Positions 13,827 to 28,023 of a stretch of 30,690 bases of DNA are shown in pieces. The first letter of the stretch is position 1; every line of letters begins with the position of its first letter. The stretch covers positions 1 through 30,690 of IMG/VR virus record IMGVR_UViG_3300006916_000031, one strand, 5' to 3'. The notes beneath the pieces are model-generated. The model saw only the letters and a program-made list of their open reading frames with translations, searched no databases and was not told the DNA's origin. Source of the DNA: a virus. The position numbers and the translations under genes are program-made.

Positions 13827-15440
13827 TCATACTCCTACAAATTGTTGTGCTTGTGGTTGTTGAGGTAGTGATGCAGGACTTGGTTGCATACCAGCAGGTT
13901 GTTGTGGTTGCTGACCCATTAGCTGTAGAACTGCTTGTAGCATTCTTTTCTTACCTAAAGCATCTCTTTGTATATCAAAGCTAACGCCATATTTTTTCAT
14001 AACAAAACTAGGTACCTCAATCGAATTCATACCGAAAATAACACCATACTCCCCTATTTGTGGTCCAAGTATTTGCTGTATTACTGCAGATGCATCAACC
14101 ACCTTTTGGACTTCTTCTCGGCGTGCCATATCTTGTACTGGTGAGTTAAACTCAACCGCAATATGGTCACCATCAATAGTCGGTGCTGGTACCATCCCAA
14201 GCTTAAATAAAATGTGCCAACACACTTTAAATAGAGGCTGGTTGAGTTCGTATTGCAATCTGTTGTACATAGCCTGATTCTGTTTTATGTACTCCTGATT
14301 ACGTATATTTGCCTCAGTAGCAGTTTGGGATGGGTCCCCAACAGTCGGTGTATCGCCTATTGGATTCAAGTTCAATGATTGTTGGATCGTGGCGATCAAC
14401 TCTTGGCGTAGAGCCATCATTTCATTAGCATTCGATGTAATACCTAGTTGCGATATCGAATTTTGTATGCCATTTGGTTGAACAGGTACGATTGACCCTG
14501 GGTTGAGCCTTACTGTGAATGGATTTAACTCAGAGCCACTAGCTACCATAAATATCGGGTTAGCATTGAAACTAGCTGCACGTAGTAAATACTCTTTGGT
14601 TAGGTTTAGCTCTTTGATAACTGGTAGTAAATCATAAATAACACCTCTTCCAAAAACCTCACCTGCAATTACTTTTGGTCTAAACACAATCCAAGGTGAA
14701 TATGACCTTTCTTCGTAAACCAAATAATCATTTCTATCTTTAACCATGACAAAGTAGCAATATTGCTTACCAGGTTTAGCCTCAGGATTAAAAACTGTAC
14801 CTTCGATTAACTCAATTTCTTCTGCAGGGTTTTTGTCTAATTTTTGCACCATATCATTAGTGAGCTTAGCATGTGGCCATGTTTGTGGTAGTACTGATAT
14901 GGCCATTTTGAATGTTCTGTAAACATTTTGTATAGTTGTATCCGGTCCTTCTTCAACACAAACCTCATGTAGTGGTACAGCTGTAAACTTGAAAGGATTA
15001 TTACGATCACCTTCGTTAACTAACAACACCCCCGTGGAAATGCCCATTTCCATAATGCATTGGTAAGCAGCCATTTGAAAATTAGATTGATTTAATTTGT
15101 CAAAGAATAAATTGGTATATTTTTCGCACTGTTGTTCTGCTTCATTTATATCTATCTTAGCTTTACCTTCTTTTACTAGCTTACCTGGTATTACTTTAGC
15201 CCAGTTTTTAACACCAAATAGCAAGCTCTGTAAGTTAGCAGCATACTTATTTAGACCGATTTGTGCTGTTGAGTCATATAAATGTTGTGTTTTGCTTTGG
15301 CCAGGTACCTGACTTTTGACGGTGAACATAGCACGATTAGGCATCGTCAACTCATAGCACTTCTGCAAGTTAGAGTACCATTGTTCTGCCCTTGATTTTG
15401 CTTTTTCGTATCTATCCTTGATACGCTTTGGATCGATCAT
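13827..15440 (-). CDS. Portal protein (T7-type head-tail connector)
   Basis: A 537-aa protein with the T7-like connector pattern. The N-terminus is helical (RIKDRYEKAKSRAEQWYSNL), followed by YELTMPNRAMF and LYDSTAQIGLNKYAANLQSLL. A central YSPWIVFRP...GEVFGRGVIYDLLPVIKELN block is then followed by SQTATEANIRNQEY. The C-terminal tail is Gln/Pro-rich (about residues 505-537). The dodecameric portal is the DNA gate and the terminase and tail docking site. AAGGATG precedes the ATG. It is unusual that the portal and scaffold genes are leftward while the capsid and tail genes are rightward. Confidence 0.9.
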   Translation of the reverse strand: MIDPKRIKDRYEKAKSRAEQWYSNLQKCYELTMPNRAMFTVKSQVPGQSKTQHLYDSTAQIGLNKYAANLQSLLFGVKNWAKVIPGKLVKEGKAKIDINEAEQQCEKYTNLFFDKLNQSNFQMAAYQCIMEMGISTGVLLVNEGDRNNPFKFTAVPLHEVCVEEGPDTTIQNVYRTFKMAISVLPQTWPHAKLTNDMVQKLDKNPAEEIELIEGTVFNPEAKPGKQYCYFVMVKDRNDYLVYEERSYSPWIVFRPKVIAGEVFGRGVIYDLLPVIKELNLTKEYLLRAASFNANPIFMVASGSELNPFTVRLNPGSIVPVQPNGIQNSISQLGITSNANEMMALRQELIATIQQSLNLNPIGDTPTVGDPSQTATEANIRNQEYIKQNQAMYNRLQYELNQPLFKVCWHILFKLGMVPAPTIDGDHIAVEFNSPVQDMARREEVQKVVDASAVIQQILGPQIGEYGVIFGMNSIEVPSFVMKKYGVSFDIQRDALGKKRMLQAVLQLMGQQPQQPAGMQPSPASLPQQPQAQQFVGV

Positions 15441-17934: not shown

Positions 17935-18327
17935 CTATAATTTGTAAATACTGGCCTCAACACGTGGATTTTCACGATCTACGCCACCGTATTGGCATTT
18001 AACCTCAACAACTGTATCGGTATCATCTGATTTGATACAGTTATATTCTGTTAGTGCATCTTGAAAAAATTTGTCGATTACGACAATAACGTTCATCAAA
18101 TCACGTTTTCTCTTGTCAGGTGCATAGTAAATATACGATATTTGTATTTTTTGATCAAATGTGAAATTTAATTGGCTATATATGGTTTGTTTGAACTGTT
18201 TTTTGAGTGTGTTTGATATGAGATAGTGCCAGTTACGGTACTGGTTGAGGTTTAGATGGTATTTTTTTCTACCTTTATGTAAAAATATGGGTAGGTAGAT
18301 TCGTTTGCATTCCGTTGCTGTAATCAT
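17935..18327 (-). CDS. rusA: RusA-like Holliday junction resolvase
   Basis: The 130-aa product has the RusA-type opening (YLPIFLHKGRKKYHLNLNQYRNWHYL), a YAPDKRKRDLMNV block and IKSDDTDTVVEV. RusA cuts four-way junctions and, in phages, helps clear branches before packaging. The ATG at 18327 is chosen because an in-frame ATG at 18366 lies inside the -35 box of the promoter; the transcript would begin about 4 nt before this ATG, so it may be leaderless. By alignment from memory, one catalytic Asp of the D-L-D-N motif is Met here (DLMN) and the nearby Lys is Val. Resolvase activity is therefore uncertain. Confidence 0.7.
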   Translation of the reverse strand: MITATECKRIYLPIFLHKGRKKYHLNLNQYRNWHYLISNTLKKQFKQTIYSQLNFTFDQKIQISYIYYAPDKRKRDLMNVIVVIDKFFQDALTEYNCIKSDDTDTVVEVKCQYGGVDRENPRVEASIYKL

Positions 18328-18337
18328 GATAAGTATG

Positions 18338-18366
18338 ATTATAGCACATTTTTGTTTAAAAGTCAA
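18338..18366 (-). promoter_or_regulatory. Strong extended -10 sigma-70 promoter for the leftward late block
   Basis: On the minus strand, TTGACT (18366-18361) is separated by exactly 17 nt from TATAAT (18343-18338), and TGC directly precedes the -10, making it extended. A start near 18331 would lie about 4 nt before the RusA-like ATG. It should drive the whole leftward block to 12.5 kb. Confidence 0.75.
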
Positions 18367-19075: not shown

Positions 19076-19585
19076 CTACTCAACTTTTTTAATTATTTTG
19101 TTAAAAAATGACCTCATTTCATCAGGCATTGGCACTGATTTTGGTTGTTCTTGATGCAATTCCACAATTTTGCTCTCTTCCTTGGTTCTACGCTTCATAT
19201 TTCTACACAAAAGGTTGAATTGTATGACATTCGGCGGAAATTTAGCATGCTCTGTCGAATTTATTAGGTCTTTTAACACATTTTGTATGATTTTCAAATC
19301 ATAATTTTGCAAAACACTCATCCACATTCTACGCATATCCGTATAATCCGATTCTGAGCCATTTAAGAGGCTTTTCCATGATCCCTGGTACATATGCCTA
19401 AAAGTGTTAAAAACCGTGTCACAGCGCTCTGTAAGCTCTTCTGGTGCAGGTTTAGTTGAGGACGTCAAGGGCGCAAGGGTCAATGCCTGCTTGACGTGAC
19501 ATTTGGGCATAGATTGTATCGAGGTCACGTTTGGGAACATGCTTTGCACGTTGGAGTTGTTCAAAGGCTTGTTTGAGGTCGTCAT
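19076..19585 (-). CDS. Replication protein P-like helicase loader
   Basis: The 169-aa product has a variable N-terminus, then a pattern like lambda P-type loaders from about residue 50: LTERCDTVFNTFRHMYQGSW, then RRMWMSVLQNYDLKIIQNVLKDLIN and FPPNVIQFNLLCRNM. Such proteins deliver the host replicative helicase to the initiator at the origin. The ATG at 19585 is preferred (GAGGA, 8 nt upstream), giving a 134-nt overlap with the initiator gene in another frame. Alternative starts at 19540 or 19510 shorten the overlap but lack a ribosome site. Pairing with the O-like gene supports the call. Confidence 0.7.
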   Translation of the reverse strand: MTTSNKPLNNSNVQSMFPNVTSIQSMPKCHVKQALTLAPLTSSTKPAPEELTERCDTVFNTFRHMYQGSWKSLLNGSESDYTDMRRMWMSVLQNYDLKIIQNVLKDLINSTEHAKFPPNVIQFNLLCRNMKRRTKEESKIVELHQEQPKSVPMPDEMRSFFNKIIKKVE

Positions 19586-20555
19586 AAGTTTTTTCCTCGT
19601 CTGGGTCTAGGTTATCCAAAAACGTCCTGCAGAAGGGCACATACTGCGTTTGAAGTGTTTTCTTGATGGCAGTATGGGCATAGAAATCCTTATCAACTAA
19701 TTCAAATGCTATTTTTTGATCAAAACACCAGAATAGGTACTGGTGGCATATACGTGTGAAACAAACTCGACGTTGCTCTTCAGTGAGCTTGTAGTATTTC
19801 TGCATGGCTGCTTTTTTTCTTTCTCTGCGTTTGGCAAATAATGTGTGATAAAAATCCCATAAATGTTCGAATGACATTTTGCCTAAAACAGGTATTTCTT
19901 TTGGCTTAGTAAACTGTGTGTTTTTTATACAAGTTTGAGTAAAAATCGCCAGTATATGTATGTAAATATATTCTACTACTATATGTATATTATAGAGTGT
20001 TCGGACATTTTGTCCGTACAGAACCGGTTTTTGCGAATCCTGTACGGACATTTTGTCCTTACAGAAAATCTTATCTTGGTCAAAATTAATACTGTAAGGT
20101 ATGTGAAATTTTTCATCTTCCATGACTTCTCCGATCGGTTCGATTGGGTATTTTGCGTTTTTTCTATACTCTTCCCATTTAGATTGAAAATCTTTGACTA
20201 ACTCATCATAGTTGAGCCCTATGTATCTGACCTTATTGCATTTTTCAGCACGCTCATACTTCATTTGTATAATATTTAGCTTTTCAAAATAAACTAGGTG
20301 TCTTTGTATAGATTTACTGCTTAAAAATGGTAAGGTTCTAAAAAAATCTTCATTGGAGTGATAGAACCAAATGAAGCCATTTTTATCTGATTCTTCTCCC
20401 ATCTTGATTTTCAATCCGGTAAGGTAGTGTATTTGTGACAAAATGATTGCAGCGTTAATACCATAAACACATGCATGCGCAACAGAAAACCACCTGCCAT
20501 GTTTATTCTCAATGAAACCTGCAAGAAATAATTTACGTTCTGGACTTTTCGCCAT
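19452..20555 (-). CDS. Replication initiator (lambda O-like, winged-helix)
   Basis: A 367-aa protein. The N-terminal part has the winged-helix layout of phage and plasmid initiators: GINAAIILSQIHYLTG, then FFRTLPFLSSKSIQRHLVYFEKLN, then NKVRYIGLNYDELV. The C-terminal part is basic and helical and probably contacts the P-like partner. Two GGACAAAATGTCC elements and an AT-rich tract in the middle of the gene look like an internal origin, as in lambda O. The ATG at 20555 has GGGG at a 6-nt spacing; a TTG at 20621 in the same frame coincides with a -35-like box. No polymerase is encoded, so host replication enzymes would be used. Confidence 0.75.
   Translation of the reverse strand: MAKSPERKLFLAGFIENKHGRWFSVAHACVYGINAAIILSQIHYLTGLKIKMGEESDKNGFIWFYHSNEDFFRTLPFLSSKSIQRHLVYFEKLNIIQMKYERAEKCNKVRYIGLNYDELVKDFQSKWEEYRKNAKYPIEPIGEVMEDEKFHIPYSINFDQDKIFCKDKMSVQDSQKPVLYGQNVRTLYNIHIVVEYIYIHILAIFTQTCIKNTQFTKPKEIPVLGKMSFEHLWDFYHTLFAKRRERKKAAMQKYYKLTEEQRRVCFTRICHQYLFWCFDQKIAFELVDKDFYAHTAIKKTLQTQYVPFCRTFLDNLDPDEEKTYDDLKQAFEQLQRAKHVPKRDLDTIYAQMSRQAGIDPCALDVLN
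19931..20064. other. Candidate replication origin inside the initiator gene
   Basis: Two 20-bp direct repeats with one mismatch lie at 20002-20021 and 20045-20064. Each contains the palindromic core GGACATTTTGTCC, and the copies are 43 bp apart (about four helical turns). Adjacent is a very AT-rich tract (19931-19997, TATGTATGTAAATATATTC and similar) suited to unwinding. The lambda origin has the same layout inside gene O. The role is inferred. Confidence 0.6.
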
Positions 20556-20591
20556 TAAATGCCCCGAATAGGGCGCAGCAATATGAATATT

Positions 20592-20621
20592 TTCATAAGG
20601 GTAGCCTAAATGTATCGTCAA
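20592..20621 (-). promoter_or_regulatory. Candidate promoter for initiator gene
   Basis: On the minus strand, TTGACG (20621-20616) and TATGAA (20597-20592) are separated by 18 nt. The -35 matches consensus at five of six positions, the -10 at four of six. The transcript would start about 30 nt before the ATG at 20555. Confidence 0.45.
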
Positions 20622-20693: not shown

Positions 20694-20912
20694 ATGGGCA
20701 ATATGGCATACCAAACATCCATCATAGAAAAAACCATCAAAATAGAAGGCAGCGGTGTTAAATTAGCTGAAATTCTTGGGGTTGATAGAAGACAAATCTC
20801 CAGGTGGAAACTGGGCAAGAGACACATACCTATTAAGCATTGCGTTACCTTATCTAACCGATATGAATTTGTTGATTTAGAAAAGTTAATAAAATGTCGC
20901 CATTTTAGTTGA
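20694..20912 (+). CDS. YdaS/Cro-like helix-turn-helix regulator
   Basis: The 72-aa product carries a compact helix-turn-helix: EGSGVKLAEILGVDRRQISRW, then KLGKRHIPIKHCVTLSNRYEF. This matches the YdaS-type Cro-like fold of lambdoid prophages, including the conserved W and the helix ending in a C-x-x-L-S-x-R-Y-x-F block. It probably binds operators in the divergent region between it and the initiator gene. A second in-frame ATG at 20703 is possible. No YdaT or CI-type partner is present. Whether it controls lysogeny or only gene timing cannot be told. Confidence 0.75.
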   Translation: MGNMAYQTSIIEKTIKIEGSGVKLAEILGVDRRQISRWKLGKRHIPIKHCVTLSNRYEFVDLEKLIKCRHFS

Positions 20913-20944: not shown

Positions 20945-20968
20945 TACTAGCTATGACGATTGCTAGTA
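20945..20968 (+). promoter_or_regulatory. Inverted repeat at the predicted transcript start
   Basis: TACTAGC (20945-20951) and GCTAGTA (20962-20968) form a perfect 7-bp inverted repeat with a 10-nt spacer, at the predicted start of the transcript. It may be a 5' stem protecting the mRNA or an operator for the adjacent regulator. Confidence 0.5.
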
Positions 20969-20993
20969 ACTATAAACAAACAAGGAAAGAAAT

Positions 20994-21485
20994 ATGCAAA
21001 ACTATTACGATATACAATCTTTACCAACCATGCCAGAACGTGCACTTCAACCTGAAGATGTTTACGGTGACATGTCTTTTTTCATTAACGAACCTGTTCA
21101 CTTTGAAGACTTAGAATCAGAGGAACAAGCTGAGTTAGCTTACAAATATAATACAGCTGATCCAGACTTGTTTTTAGAGGCTGTGGCTGAATCTGATGAT
21201 TACGAAGAATTCTTTGACTGTGTTTTAAATGCTAATAAAACTATTGGTTTAATGGATTTAGAAACTATCAAATCACATAATAAATCACATTATCAAGCTT
21301 TACGTAACCTTCAAGAAATATGCCACAGAATACTTATTCCATACGCTCAAGATCAAATACAAGAAAATTTACTAGATAGTGTTGAAGATAATGTATTAGG
21401 CTTTACCGCTGGTGATATATCACACAAAGCTATTATGAATATTAGAAACCGTCGTAACCGTCAAGTTTTAGGAGGTGTAGCATGA
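20994..21485 (+). CDS. Hypothetical acidic protein, 163 aa
   Basis: The product (MQNYYDIQSLPTMPERALQP...) is strongly acidic in the first 80 residues (EDLESEEQAELAYKY, ESDDYEEFFDCV) and has a short basic C-terminus (IRNRRNRQVLGG). It is not recognised; the acidity could suggest a DNA-mimic or a binding protein, which is speculation. The leader TAAACAAACAAGGAAA before the ATG also precedes the 56-aa gene at 21729, and both proteins start MQN. It is the first gene after the strong promoter at 20909. Confidence 0.75.
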   Translation: MQNYYDIQSLPTMPERALQPEDVYGDMSFFINEPVHFEDLESEEQAELAYKYNTADPDLFLEAVAESDDYEEFFDCVLNANKTIGLMDLETIKSHNKSHYQALRNLQEICHRILIPYAQDQIQENLLDSVEDNVLGFTAGDISHKAIMNIRNRRNRQVLGGVA

Positions 21486-21678: not shown

Positions 21679-21728
21679 AGATGACGATATAGCTTCTTAT
21701 GAAACTTTAAACAAACAAGGAAATACTT

Positions 21729-21899
21729 ATGCAAAACAATATTAACCTCGATAACAGTATTATTTCACAGTGTGAGACATCAGTCAATAGTATTGTGAGA
21801 TATATGCCCAATAAATTCATGGAAGACCAAGTCGATTACAAACAAAAGTCGAAAGACTTACAGTTTCGTAATCGCAGATGGTACCAATTTTGGGTTTAA
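21729..21899 (+). CDS. 56-aa hypothetical protein
   Basis: The product (MQNNINLDNSIISQCETSVN..., ending RNRRWYQFWV) has an aromatic/basic C-terminus. The leader has the same 16 nt, TAAACAAACAAGGAAA, as the gene at 20994, with the start at similar spacing. It is not recognised. It fills the gap before the exonuclease gene. Confidence 0.65.
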   Translation: MQNNINLDNSIISQCETSVNSIVRYMPNKFMEDQVDYKQKSKDLQFRNRRWYQFWV

Positions 21900-21915: not shown

Positions 21916-22755
21916 ATGATAGATAAAGAATTTATTGAACAACGCCGTAGTGGTATTGGTGGTACTGATGCTGCTGCTATTTGTAGAGCTAATCCGTTTA
22001 AATGCCCTGTACAGATATACTTAGAGAAGATTGGTGAAGCAGAACTTGAACATGAAAACATGTATATGTGGCTAGGCAAAGCATTAGAGCCAAATCTTAA
22101 AGTAAAATATGAGGAGTTGTACGGCTATAAAGTCGAAGAGCAGGGCATGATTCGCCATCACACATACTCATACTTGATGGCGCATGTTGATGGTATTGTT
22201 AAAGATAGCCATATTGTTGAATTTAAAACAAGCAGCAATGCCGACAAGTGGGCACCTGAAACAGAAGATTATGCTTCTATGCATGATGTACCGTTAGCTT
22301 ATTATTATCAAATACAGCATTATATGATGGTTACTGGTATGGATGAAGCACATATTTTTGTATTTATTTATGGGTTTAAAATGGAAACACGTTTATACAA
22401 ATTCAAAAGAGACCAGCTATTTATAGTCAAAATGCGCTGTAGGCTGATGGACTTTTGGGTTAACAATGTTATGAAGATGGAACCCCCTAAGGCGATGACT
22501 CGGGATGAGGTAGCGATACTTCATCCTGAGCCAGAGTCTAAAAAGCGTGTTCAAGCTTCTAAGGTTGATCTTGATAAAGCTAACGAGCTAGCTGAAATTA
22601 AGTCTAAGATGAACAACTTAAAAAAGTTAGAAAAGGCGTGCAAGGACCAGCTGGCCTCATCACTTCAAGACGGAGAAGAACTAGTCACTGAAGATGTTGT
22701 CATAGCCAGCTTTAGATGCAATAAAAATGGCACAAGAACACTATTAGTCAAATAA
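21916..22755 (+). CDS. YqaJ-type viral recombinase exonuclease
   Basis: A 279-aa protein with the YqaJ/lambda-exonuclease fold motifs: RRSGIGGTDAAAI (11-22), E58 in GKALEPN, D92 in AHVDG, E102-x-K104 in VEFKT, and the YYQIQHYMMVTG helix (130-141). These are the metal-binding and catalytic residues of the PD-(D/E)XK family. It would resect DNA ends 5' to 3' and hand the strand to the RecT protein encoded 0.4 kb downstream. ACAAGGAAG precedes the ATG. The C-terminal region is a helical, Lys-rich tail. Confident call. Confidence 0.88.
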   Translation: MIDKEFIEQRRSGIGGTDAAAICRANPFKCPVQIYLEKIGEAELEHENMYMWLGKALEPNLKVKYEELYGYKVEEQGMIRHHTYSYLMAHVDGIVKDSHIVEFKTSSNADKWAPETEDYASMHDVPLAYYYQIQHYMMVTGMDEAHIFVFIYGFKMETRLYKFKRDQLFIVKMRCRLMDFWVNNVMKMEPPKAMTRDEVAILHPEPESKKRVQASKVDLDKANELAEIKSKMNNLKKLEKACKDQLASSLQDGEELVTEDVVIASFRCNKNGTRTLLVK

Positions 22756-22765
22756 GGAAAAAATC

Positions 22766-23029
22766 ATGCTTACCGGAAAACAAAATAAACTTATAAAATA
22801 TATGATTGATACAACTGGTGGATGGGTAACATTTCGTAATTCAATTATAGACAATGAGGTTAAATGGGTTGTTGATATAGAATGGAACATTGACTGTCCA
22901 ATGCAAGATGACAGGTTGACAGATGATTTTCATTTTGCAGTGTCAAATATATTTTATGATGACACTTTAGATGGTGCTCTGCATAAGGCTGTACATTTTG
23001 TTATAGCAAAAACTATTATAGAGGAGTAA
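22766..23029 (+). CDS. Hypothetical protein, 87 aa
   Basis: The product (MLTGKQNKLIKYMIDTTGGW...) is acidic with several Trp residues (VTFRNSIIDNEVKWVVDIEW). It is not recognised. It sits between the exonuclease and RecT genes and has AAGGAAAAA upstream of the ATG. Its location suggests a role in the recombination module. Confidence 0.7.
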   Translation: MLTGKQNKLIKYMIDTTGGWVTFRNSIIDNEVKWVVDIEWNIDCPMQDDRLTDDFHFAVSNIFYDDTLDGALHKAVHFVIAKTIIEE

Positions 23030-23032
23030 ATA

Positions 23033-23164
23033 ATGGATCAACAAGTTAATAACAAACTACAATATTTATCTGAAGCAGCGTATGAGCTGTATAAAATTAC
23101 AGATCGACTAAACCATAAAATAAAATTAATAGAACTAGCAATAAAGGAGTTGGCTAATGACTAA
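23033..23164 (+). CDS. 43-aa hypothetical helical protein
   Basis: The frame MDQQVNNKLQYLSEAAYELY...ELAND is a single amphipathic helix by composition. The ribosome site GAGGAG is good, it begins just after the upstream gene, and it ends in an 8-nt overlap with the RecT start. That packing supports translation. Function is unknown. Confidence 0.65.
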   Translation: MDQQVNNKLQYLSEAAYELYKITDRLNHKIKLIELAIKELAND

Positions 23165-23912
23165 TCAACTACAAGTATCAAAAGGAACTAGCTTTGTACC
23201 AACAACTATTCAAGAAGCAGAACATGTTGTCAATGCAATATGTAGTTCATCATTAGTGCCACAACAATACCGTGGTAAGAAAGGTGAGGCATTAGCTGCT
23301 GTTATTTATGGCGCTGAGATTGGCTTATCGCCATTACAAGCAATGCAAAGCATAGCTGTTATTAATGGTAAACCATCAGTATATGGAGATGCATTAATTG
23401 CTTTAGTGCAAGCACATCCTATGTACGAATCAATACAAGAAAGTATCGAGAATACAAAGGATGGTTTAACAGCTGTATGCACGGTAAAGAGAAAAGGTTC
23501 ACCAGAACATACAGTAAGGTTCTCTGAAACTGATGCAAAACTAGCAGGGAAGTGGGGATCTACTGGACCATGGAAACAATACCCAAAGCGTATGCTGCAG
23601 ATGCGTGCACGAGGATTTGCTTGCCGTGATCAGTTTGCCGATGCTTTGAAAGGTTTAATCATTCGTGAAGAAGCTCAAGATTACGAGATTATTAACGTAA
23701 CACCTAAAGCAAATAAACCACATGAATCAACTGTAGTTGCTGAGCAAGATACTAATGAAGATGCTATGTTTGTAGAGTATAAACAAATGATTAATACCTG
23801 TGATTCTGAAGACTCACTTAAAGCACTTGGTGAAGATATTAAAGACTTACCAGATGAAACTAAAGAAAAGCTTAAGCCTATTTATGTAGACAAGCTTAAA
23901 ACATTTAACTAA
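23157..23912 (+). CDS. recT: RecT-family single-strand annealing protein
   Basis: The 251-aa product has the RecT core: a helix (EAEHVVNAICSSSLVP), YRGKKGEALAAVIYGAEIGLSPLQAMQSIAVINGKPSVYG and GDALIALVQAHP, then the DAKLAGKWGSTGPW and YPKRMLQMRARGFACRDQFAD motifs. It would anneal complementary strands during recombination and replication with the YqaJ exonuclease. The C-terminal 60 residues are acidic and look like a partner-binding tail. AAGGAG is upstream of the ATG. No full-length family irregularity is evident. Confidence 0.88.
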   Translation: MTNQLQVSKGTSFVPTTIQEAEHVVNAICSSSLVPQQYRGKKGEALAAVIYGAEIGLSPLQAMQSIAVINGKPSVYGDALIALVQAHPMYESIQESIENTKDGLTAVCTVKRKGSPEHTVRFSETDAKLAGKWGSTGPWKQYPKRMLQMRARGFACRDQFADALKGLIIREEAQDYEIINVTPKANKPHESTVVAEQDTNEDAMFVEYKQMINTCDSEDSLKALGEDIKDLPDETKEKLKPIYVDKLKTFN

Positions 23913-24563: not shown

Positions 24564-24758
24564 ATGCTAGTACTAACAAGAAGAATCGACGAATGCTTTA
24601 TGATCGGTGATGATGTACAAATAAAAATATTAGGAGTGAAGGGGAGTCAAGTACGAATTGGAATCATCGCACCTAAAGACGTTCAGGTGCACCGCTTAGA
24701 AATATATAATCGAATCATGAATGAAAATAAAAAAGGGTTAAGGATCGTGAATCCGTAA
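24564..24758 (+). CDS. csrA: CsrA/RsmA-type RNA-binding translational regulator
   Basis: A 64-aa protein with the canonical CsrA sequence: [20 protein letters not shown], then [21 protein letters not shown] and EIYNRI. The RNA-contacting N-terminal LTRR and the VHR segment are both present, so RNA binding is likely. CsrA dimers bind GGA in stem-loops near ribosome sites and repress or stabilise mRNAs. This is normally a chromosomal gene; a phage copy could rewire host metabolism or control phage translation. Its own leader contains ACAAGGAG. It ends in a terminator-like hairpin. The identification is strong; the target is unknown. Confidence 0.92.
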
Positions 24759-26353: not shown

Positions 26354-27715
26354 TTAAATAAGTGGATCTTGGCAGGCAAGATTAGTAATTGCCTGCCCTA
26401 TTCCAGTGAATGAATTTAACAAACCTTGATGCTTAGCTAAAGCAACTAACATAAATGCATCCGTACCATGGTTTCCCCAGCTGTCAGCTACTTTGCCTGG
26501 TTGGCCATCTTTTTTCTCAATAGCATGATAATTCATAATGCAATCAAGTAGCCTTTGTACTTTTGGCTGATGAAAATAATAGTTTTTGAATTGTGTGCGC
26601 GACATTTCAATATTATCGATATCGGTTCTAGGTCTGCCAACCCTTATAAAGTTTATGCCTAACCTACTCGCTTTATCTTGTCTTGTTTGCCCGTCTGAAA
26701 GTTCACGTTGACGTATATCATGTGGAGCAAAATGTTTTCCAAATACTACACCATTTTTATCTCGCCAATCATGTAGGTAGTTTATGTAATGTTCGAAGCC
26801 ATGGTTATTGTTTTCGTAATAATCAATAAAATGTACATTGCCATTTTCCATGAACTGAACCATACAAATAGCCATTTTATCGTTAATACCTAAATCCCAG
26901 AATGTATGCACAGGCACTTCAGGACTAATATTTAGCCTTGTTATCCGGTTTTCTTGTGTAGCCCTGTTAAGATAGCGGACGAAATAGGAGTTTTCCAGTG
27001 CAACATCCCAATCCAAAAAGTACTCTTGCCTGATTTTCTCGATTGACATTGTACTTTTTGCCGTTTCAATCATTTCATCTGTAACCGCCCTAGTACCATC
27101 ATCAAGAAATAACTCAGTAGCTGTGAGTTCACTGTAGTACCATTGTGGATCACTTTTAACACGGTTACGAAGCCTATAACCATGATTATGACCACGTGGT
27201 GTTCCATTAATGATAATAAAGCCACCGGTTTCTAGCACGATAGGCATAAAATATTCCAAACAAGCTGGATCTTGAATCGGATATTCTGAAAAAATCATGC
27301 CAGCAGATGAGATACCAACATAATTATCAGATCTAGCAGCACTTAAAAGCTGAATGGTTGACCCATTGATGAGCGTGATCATCATTTTGTTGTTATCTTT
27401 TTTCTTGATTAGCTCTTCAGGAATATGGTCAAGTGTGTTATTACCGTCTTTATCGATACCATGCCAGATAACTTTTTCTGCCTGACCTTTTTCTGGAAAA
27501 ATAATATGGTAGTTACCTACCCTGTATAGAGCCATACAAACGAGTAGATTAAAGCATGATTTATCTTTGCCTGCGCGTCTACTCCAATAGATACAGGCAT
27601 ATTTTAATTTATCAACCAAAAAGGCCTCAAAGAGGCCCTTCTGATATTCACGCAAGGTGAATTTATGGGGTAAGAAATGTATTTCTTTATTAGCTAATAA
27701 GCTCAATAGAACCAT
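26354..27715 (-). CDS. terL: Terminase large subunit
   Basis: A 453-aa packaging motor. The ATPase domain has a TerL-type Walker A variant at residues 45-52 (SRRAGKDK) and a Walker B-like strand GMIFSEYPI near residue 135. The nuclease domain carries WDLGINDK, KHFAPHDIR and a C-terminal NHGTDAFMLVA, supplying the metal-binding acidic residues. The ATG at 27715 is preferred; an in-frame GTG at 27748 gives 464 aa but lacks a ribosome site. It is alone on the minus strand, next to the capsid leader and far from its small subunit. It converges with the early rightward block. Confidence 0.9.
   Translation of the reverse strand: MVLLSLLANKEIHFLPHKFTLREYQKGLFEAFLVDKLKYACIYWSRRAGKDKSCFNLLVCMALYRVGNYHIIFPEKGQAEKVIWHGIDKDGNNTLDHIPEELIKKKDNNKMMITLINGSTIQLLSAARSDNYVGISSAGMIFSEYPIQDPACLEYFMPIVLETGGFIIINGTPRGHNHGYRLRNRVKSDPQWYYSELTATELFLDDGTRAVTDEMIETAKSTMSIEKIRQEYFLDWDVALENSYFVRYLNRATQENRITRLNISPEVPVHTFWDLGINDKMAICMVQFMENGNVHFIDYYENNNHGFEHYINYLHDWRDKNGVVFGKHFAPHDIRQRELSDGQTRQDKASRLGINFIRVGRPRTDIDNIEMSRTQFKNYYFHQPKVQRLLDCIMNYHAIEKKDGQPGKVADSWGNHGTDAFMLVALAKHQGLLNSFTGIGQAITNLACQDPLI
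26371..26397. other. Long perfect hairpin inside the 3' end of the terminase gene
   Basis: GGCAGGCAA and TTGCCTGCC (9 bp) flank a 9-nt loop, inside codons for the TerL C-terminus and 24 nt after the convergent gene's stop. No T-tract follows on either strand. It may act as a bidirectional transcription boundary. Confidence 0.4.
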
Positions 27716-28023
27716 CCTTGGTAATCTCTCTATGATTATGGAGTTCACTATACGTCATCTAAGCCCGAAAGCATATAGACAAAAAGAGAGAAGCTATCCC
27801 TTAGCTACATATATTGTATAATAAGTTGCTGGAAAACACAATATATTGACTAGTTGACATATTATTGTACATGCGTTAAGGTCGAATTATCAGATGGAAC
27901 CTCAATGGATGAGGACAACTATCTTTAATTAATTAAAGATGGTGATTATCAAGGACCGGATCGACTATTCGATAACCTTATTTTAGTTACCTGAAGGAAT
28001 AAAACTAAAGTAAGGAGACTCTA
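27716..28023. promoter_or_regulatory. Divergent intergenic region and structured capsid leader
   Basis: This stretch of about 300 nt separates terL (leftward) from the capsid gene (rightward). TTGACT (27846-27851) and TTGACA (27854-27859) resemble -35 boxes, but no good -10 lies 16-18 nt further on. Four inverted repeats follow: CCTCA/TGAGG (27900-27914), a perfect 20-bp palindrome (27921-27940), ATCGA/TCGAT (27960-27973) and TTTAGTT/AACTAAA (27982-28009). Only a 12-codon frame (27894) lies between. The capsid ribosome site, TAAGGAG, follows directly. Confidence 0.55.

Follow-up and report, generated by a model that had tools for sequence, protein, structure and literature searches.

Introduction

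In plasmids with RepA_N initiators, semi-palindromic iterons converge on a poly-A tract that lies inside the rep gene itself (PMC7145576, PMC5703833). The origin of pSK41 is located centrally within rep, and the part of the gene that contains it encodes a dispensable linker (PMC5703833, PMC7145576). A related case is the Rep protein of pPR9, an initiator of the pSK41 type whose N-terminal domain is a phage-like HTH_36 domain. Its C-terminal domain is retained, and its N-terminal DNA-binding domain differs jointly with the origin (PMC5703833). In lambdoid phages the iterons are imperfect inverted repeats that are bound by dimers of the O protein (PMC7466680). For the Francisella phage KIRK a lambda-like origin was proposed on sequence grounds, with repeats inside the gene fhv_0043 (PMC7924643). 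For most phages it is not known where replication starts. Here, we describe a locus in the virus record IMGVR_UViG_3300006916_000031 and compare it with these systems. The whole stretch of DNA that was analyzed, 30,690 nucleotides in length, is referred to as the window.

Results

Two palindromes lie next to an AT-rich tract inside the initiator gene

The initiator gene of the window contains two 23-bp quasi-palindromes, TGTTCGGACATTTTGTCCGTACA (iteron B) and TGTACGGACATTTTGTCCTTACA (iteron A), that are 43 bp apart from start to start and identical at 24 of 26 positions when compared over 26 nt (Table 1). Both have the sense-strand core GGACAAAATGTCC in common, and their consensus TGTACGGACA-TTT-TGTCCGTACA forms an inverted repeat of 23 bp, each arm being 10 bp long. 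No further copy of the exact core was found anywhere in the 30,690-base record. When codons were swapped among synonymous positions of the same gene, none of 500 shuffles yielded a pair of 26-mers within 100 nt that matched at 24 of 26 positions, and 6 of 1000 codon-shuffled controls contained an exact direct repeat of 14 nt within the same distance. The adjoining tract is 78% AT, more than any other 60-nt stretch of the gene; it is not the richest of the genome, where 347 of 30,630 windows are equally rich. The window shares with RepA_N origins the arrangement of semi-palindromic iterons that converge on a poly-A tract within the initiator gene. Halfway between the iterons lies the A-tract sequence GCAAAAACC. 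Since the iterons of relatives are spaced by 22-23 or 42-46 bp and this sequence occupies the midpoint between A and B, it is possibly a decayed third iteron, a role that is inferred from sequence alone. A preliminary description of the window had reported near-identical repeats with a palindromic core at 19931-20064, 43 bp apart, next to an AT-rich tract within the initiator ORF, and had noted that there are two iterons with a core unlike that of lambda. These points all held, with the repeats now measured as 23-bp sites and a possible third site added.

Table 1. Positions of the features of the putative origin region in the window.
Feature	Position	Strand	Remarks
Iteron A	20041-20063	minus	core 20046-20058, sense TGTAAGGACAAAATGTCCGTACA
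Iteron B	19998-20020	minus	core 20003-20015, sense TGTACGGACAAAATGTCCGAACA
AT-rich tract	19934-19993	minus	located 3' of both iterons (sense strand); possible unwinding element
Possible decayed third site	20026-20034	minus	sense GCAAAAACC, midpoint of iterons A and B
Stretch coding for predicted disordered linker	19974-20135	minus	residues 141-194, pLDDT <50; includes both iterons
Winged-helix (wH) replication initiator	19455-20555	minus	367 aa from likely ATG at 20555; whole ORF 19452-20621
wH DNA-binding domain	20151-20483	minus	residues 25-135; AlphaFold2 model, Foldseek PDB matches
Predicted recognition helix	20280-20318	minus	residues 80-92, SKSIQRHLVYFEK
Specificity position x2, K81	20313-20315	minus	model and mutual-information ranking
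Specificity position x3, Q84	20304-20306	minus	model and mutual-information ranking
Helicase-loader gene	19076-19585	minus	Inhibitor_G39P PF11417, 28.8 bits, cut-off 22

The initiator is a DnaD-like winged-helix protein

Profile searches matched the initiator to PHROG 6493 (E=4.5e-10), PHROG 11233 (E=2e-8) and PHROG 428 (E=7e-5). No Pfam or NCBIfam family was matched, the models for lambda O and RepA_N (PF06970) included. In an alignment of initiator relatives, 32 of the 33 members matched PHROG 6493. By the profile match of its N-terminal domain, the protein is a wH initiator of PHROG 6493 (DnaD-like). It is a divergent member with ~17-27% identity to most others of the family; a search with the N-terminal part only found no closer relatives, and a sequence search of the PDB gave no useful match. 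AlphaFold2 modeled the wH domain with a pLDDT of ~90, placed a helix at residues 80-92 and predicted the adjoining linker to be disordered, while the model of the C-terminal domain was poor. The best Foldseek matches in the PDB were the RepA_N plasmid initiators 4pql and 4pt7 and the Rep-DNA complex 5kbj, at modest scores (E=0.008-0.03; target TM 0.54 at E=0.008). The predicted fold is thus nearest to the RepA_N plasmid initiators, although the match is a modest one.

The next gene after the initiator encodes the helicase loader. Apart from its Inhibitor_G39P domain, the product matches PHROG 2289 and the P-like PHROG 109, the latter weakly (E=0.0012). The cumulative GC skew has its minimum near 19-21 kb. 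Since the genes change from leftward to rightward at the same place, the skew tracks gene orientation and was rejected as independent evidence for an origin. With respect to the preliminary description, the proposed O-like nature of the initiator failed, given that there is no lambda O match in Pfam or NCBIfam and the protein is DnaD-like instead. The P-like partner gene held in part, with Inhibitor_G39P above the cut-off and only a weak P-like match, and the skew minimum that was to be looked for is there but confounded.

Further features of the window were recorded. A RecE-like exonuclease (YqaJ), a RecT annealing protein and a RusA-like resolvase are encoded at 21916-23912 (plus) and 17935-18366 (minus), a full recombination set on both sides of the origin region. 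A phage-encoded CsrA-family regulator (PF02599, E=1e-22) is found at 24564-24758 (plus). A 38-nt direct repeat (AACTATAAACAAACAAGGAAAGAAATATGCAAAACTAT; 20968-21005 and 21703-21740, 87% identical) extends, at each of two early positions, from the leader into the first codons and is perhaps a shared translational or regulatory leader. Portal and terminase (13827-15440, 26354-27748) are nearest to those of Vibrio and other marine phages, with 30-37% identity.

The paired core recurs in unrelated initiator genes and is selected as DNA

The exact paired core was present in 24 IMG/VR contigs, and a scan for GGACA-NNN-TGTCC pairs with a free center returned at least 120 contig stretches. Nearly all exact-core pairs lie in wH-type initiator-like genes, usually ~300-450 nt from the start. 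All three codon phases and both orientations are represented, and the 13-mer core is translated as DKMS, GQNV, TKCP, DILS, GHFV or TFCP accordingly. Among the 89 distinct ORFs with a pair, PHROG 270 ("replication initiation protein") accounts for 41 and other initiation families for many others; the commonest Pfam domain is HTH_36 (20/89). The free-center sites are distributed over the codon phases as 99/49/99 across 91 distinct ORFs, and 58 of these genes contain sites in at least two phases.

These distributions bear on the possibility that the repeats are kept as peptide repeats of the initiator linker. In favor of this explanation, the repeats are translated and DKMS- and GQNV-like peptides recur in relatives. 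Against it, the cores A and B of the window lie in codon phases 0 and 2 of the minus-strand ORF and encode different peptides, more than half of the genes use at least two phases, and the linker is predicted to be disordered. Because sites occupy all codon phases, often several per gene, the core repeats are selected as DNA and not as peptide, and the peptide explanation is all but excluded.

The exact pair also sits in bacterial chromosomes outside initiator genes, namely in Rhodocyclaceae, Alphaproteobacteria and Clostridia. The core alone is hence not diagnostic, and its use as a marker of origins was rejected. In Rhodocyclaceae (Dechloromonas, Azonexus; five loci) an exact GGACAAAATGTCC pair with 29-bp spacing lies directly upstream of an apparent formate-dehydrogenase-type operon and resembles a regulator site unrelated to phage origins. 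In Rhizobiales and Thalassospira (nine loci and further Thalassospira loci) the pair is spaced by 22-24 or 42-43 bp; it is apparently intergenic, perhaps adjoining a two-component histidine-kinase gene, and it is conserved but unexplained. Clostridia MAGs (seven loci and others) contain several scattered intergenic copies of GGACATTTTGTCC that form part of longer repeats (GGGGACGTTTC...); these may be a MITE-like element.

A control palindrome, CCTGANNNTCAGG (CCTGA-NNN-TCAGG), was found in 18 contigs. It was rejected as a clean negative, since five of these loci resemble replication genes with iterons of their own, and for this reason the analysis relied instead on codon shuffles and on the C-terminal gene part as controls. 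In the five loci the control motif forms tandem in-gene repeats that encode PENQ, PEIQ or PDFQ; the genes look like other helix-turn-helix replication genes and probably represent another specificity class. The core sequence of the window was in no paper of the open-access literature that we searched, a search that left out subscription papers and preprints.

Initiators collected by protein similarity carry the same type of site

A profile of the wH domain recovered 167 unique initiators from all fetched loci, which included the protein-similarity collections and named phages. In 87 of them, at least two sites of one NNNCA-NNN-TGNNN family lie at nt 240-560 of the gene. The expectation from codon shuffles is 0.0, and in the C-terminal gene part such sites were seen in 1 of 129. 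Among the loci that had been fetched without use of the motif, 73 of 153 carry such pairs. Many of the apparently negative initiators hold degenerate, asymmetric copies that the strict finder missed, for example L286, L266 and L317. Within the family, the spacing is mostly 22-23 bp or about double (42-46), the center is mostly AAA or AAT, and the arms vary in a compensatory fashion between lineages, with GGA, GGT, GGC, GCT, GAT, GTT, TAT, TGT, ACC or GTG as outer triplet. In a motif-blind survey of HTH_36-type initiators in host genomes, iterons were detected in 2 of 40 and the family could not be resolved; the corresponding alignment was too divergent to serve as a search query. Palindromes of the type AACAG-N5-CTGTT were seen close to the NNNCA-NNN-TGNNN iterons in four initiator genes.

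The nearest relative, locus L252, is 59% identical over residues 173-389. The AT tract is retained in this locus, as is a pair of palindromes with similar spacing. The palindromes themselves follow a CCGCA...TGCGG pattern, however, and their spacer is probably 5 bases long, where that of the window has 3. At residues identical in both proteins, the codons are conserved at 16 of 18 positions in the AT tract and at 62 of 98 elsewhere (downstream; Fisher p=0.026). What is conserved is the architecture together with a protein-matched sequence and not a fixed set of letters; this is shown for the sequence, whereas binding is inferred. Because the wH domain of L252 lies beyond the contig end, the co-variation of helix and arms could not be tested in this closest pair. 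The search for repeats in relatives that the preliminary description had proposed was thus positive, with palindromic iterons at the corresponding place, although the letters of the nearest relative differ.

The outer arm triplet follows two residues of the predicted recognition helix

In the helix motif FWS-x1-x2-T-I-x3-R, x2 and x3 lie four and seven places after the F. For three subsets, we ranked the wH columns by their mutual information with the inner two of the variable arm bases, using 2000 permutations. The x2 column ranked first in all subsets (z=8.9 for all sequences, 6.4 for the motif-blind set and 7.6 at 65% dereplication), none of the 2000 permutations being as strong, and x3 ranked second or third. 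Initiators that have the same x2 and x3 at <45% wH identity share their triplet in 16 of 19 pairs, compared to 69 of 386 pairs otherwise. A leave-one-out prediction of the triplet from donors <70% identical was right in 29 of 36 cases. All 12 representatives with K or R at x2 have G as arm base 2. A wider set, selected by motif and extending to further wH families, comprises 45 distinct helices, of which 43 have K or R at x2; this result is weaker, since the baseline for other wH families is unknown. The permutations ignore the tree, and the safeguard against this consists of the cross-lineage pairs and the set at 65% dereplication. Most GGA representatives were found by motif, which inflates their share, though this alone cannot create the helix association. 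With the reservation that the statistics ignore kinship, the arm triplet is associated with the residues x2 and x3 across lineages. The window, with K81 and Q84, carries GGA like two other loci with K and Q at these positions, and its arms therefore fit the GGA class predicted by this residue pair. We found no paper on such an arm/helix code in the open-access literature, with subscription papers and preprints again outside the search.

This association has to be weighed against three further explanations. First, the palindromes might be operators for the initiator or for another phage regulator, such as the product of 20694-20912, and act in transcription rather than replication. The sites are palindromic and dimer-sized, and that Cro/CII/YdaS-like product is encoded divergently and close to the initiator gene. 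Initiators often autoregulate. On the other hand, the sites lie ~500 nt inside the gene and not at a promoter, no exact copy exists upstream, the site sequence in relatives follows the initiator's own recognition helix, and the array itself, with iterons repeating every 22-23 bp next to an AT-rich tract, resembles an origin. We regard the operator explanation as very unlikely.

Second, the palindromes could form single-stranded hairpins or cruciforms for priming or termination. They are inverted repeats, the compensatory arm changes from lineage to lineage would fit hairpins as well, and cruciforms have been discussed for lambdoid origins (PMC7466680). This explanation leaves the tracking of two helix residues by the arm bases unexplained, as well as the 22-23-bp phasing and the constant CA-NNN-TG center, and there is very little to recommend it. 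Third, a widely conserved host protein might bind the core and be borrowed by the phage, as the same paired core is present in intergenic regions of several bacterial groups. Yet, the arms differ in step with the phage helix even where the hosts are similar (GGT, GCT, GAT, GTT and GGC in one protein-similarity set), and the sites lie inside initiator genes whatever the host. A host protein is likewise a very improbable reader of these sites.

Discussion

The stretch is very likely (probability about 0.88) a phage replication origin inside its own initiator gene, with the palindromes as binding sites of the initiator, although there are no binding or replication data. We consider the palindromes to be most likely the initiator's own sites, because the arm triplet tracks the helix residues and K81/Q84 of the window fits GGA. 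The anatomy, the recurrence in unrelated initiator genes, the selection at the DNA level and the association of arms and helix have been demonstrated. That the window has only two clear iterons remains a caveat. The lambda-like in-gene origin of the preliminary description is supported as by far the best reading, again without replication data.

How such an origin would operate can be sketched. The wH domain would bind each 23-bp palindrome as a dimer, with the recognition helix reading the outer arm bases around an A-tract center. K81 and Q84 would read GGA, and the invariant R85 perhaps contacts the constant CA/TG. Once formed, this complex may melt the AT-rich tract alongside, and the replicative helicase would be recruited through the initiator's C-terminal part and the neighboring G39P/P-type loader. 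Binding, dimer stoichiometry, melting, helicase loading and the direction of replication are all inferred.

If this reading is true, the origins of a large group of O-like/DnaD-like phages could be located and sorted by specificity from their sequences. The pairing of protein and site within one gene would provide natural data for decoding DNA recognition by winged helices, and there would be a testable reason for joint changes of initiator N-terminal domain and origin, as in pPR9. A bolder reading, which we favor by a narrow margin, holds that a large class of wH initiators in phages of several bacterial phyla has an in-gene NNNCA-NNN-TGNNN origin and a two-residue code. In this code, for example, K with S, Q, E or K would specify GGA, K with R or S with K GGT, S with R GTT, A with R GCT, and D with K GTG; the GGACA site of the window would be the K/Q case. 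Reader and site lie in one gene, and therefore the location of the origin, its specificity class and the compatibility of co-infecting phages would become predictable from sequence alone.

Among described phages, those with a PHROG 6493/428/11233 "DnaD-like helicase loader / replication initiation protein" are the family to which the window belongs by sequence. Named members have sites of their own in the initiator gene: Staphylococcus phage G30_01 contains four copies of GCTCAAAATGAGC, Bacillus phage BhaS-171 two copies of GGTCAAAATGACC, and Hafnia phage yong2 GGACA-type sites. The existing annotations of members that we have seen carry no mark on the repeats. Phage KIRK resembles the window in that the repeats lie in a replication gene adjoining an Inhibitor_G39P gene. 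Its initiator and its repeats are different, and the relevant sections of its description contain no cross-phage motif or specificity rule (PMC7924643).

The lambda and Stx-phage ori in O (PMC7466680) shares with the window the in-gene position, the AT-rich tract beside the iterons and the loader gene that follows. In contrast, the initiator of the window is in no Pfam O family, the lambdoid iteron ATCCCTCAAAACGAGGGA is unrelated, and two clear 23-bp sites 43 bp apart compare with four iterons of 18-19 bp. The RepA_N plasmid origins (pSK41, pTZ2162) and the RepA of the satellite PLE are similar in having a wH N-terminal domain that dimerizes on iterons (PMC5703833, PMC7145576), as is inferred for the window, and RepA_N proteins provide the closest solved folds, at modest scores. 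They differ in that the window initiator has no PF06970 sequence match and is a phage gene beside a G39P-type loader, and in that the window has GGACA-NNN-TGTCC arms and two clear sites instead of four. pPR9 differs in being a plasmid; its joint change of N-terminal domain and origin is what the arm/helix code predicts. By analogy, the origin of the window would likely work as lambda ori does with O and as the RepA_N origins do, but in a different initiator family.
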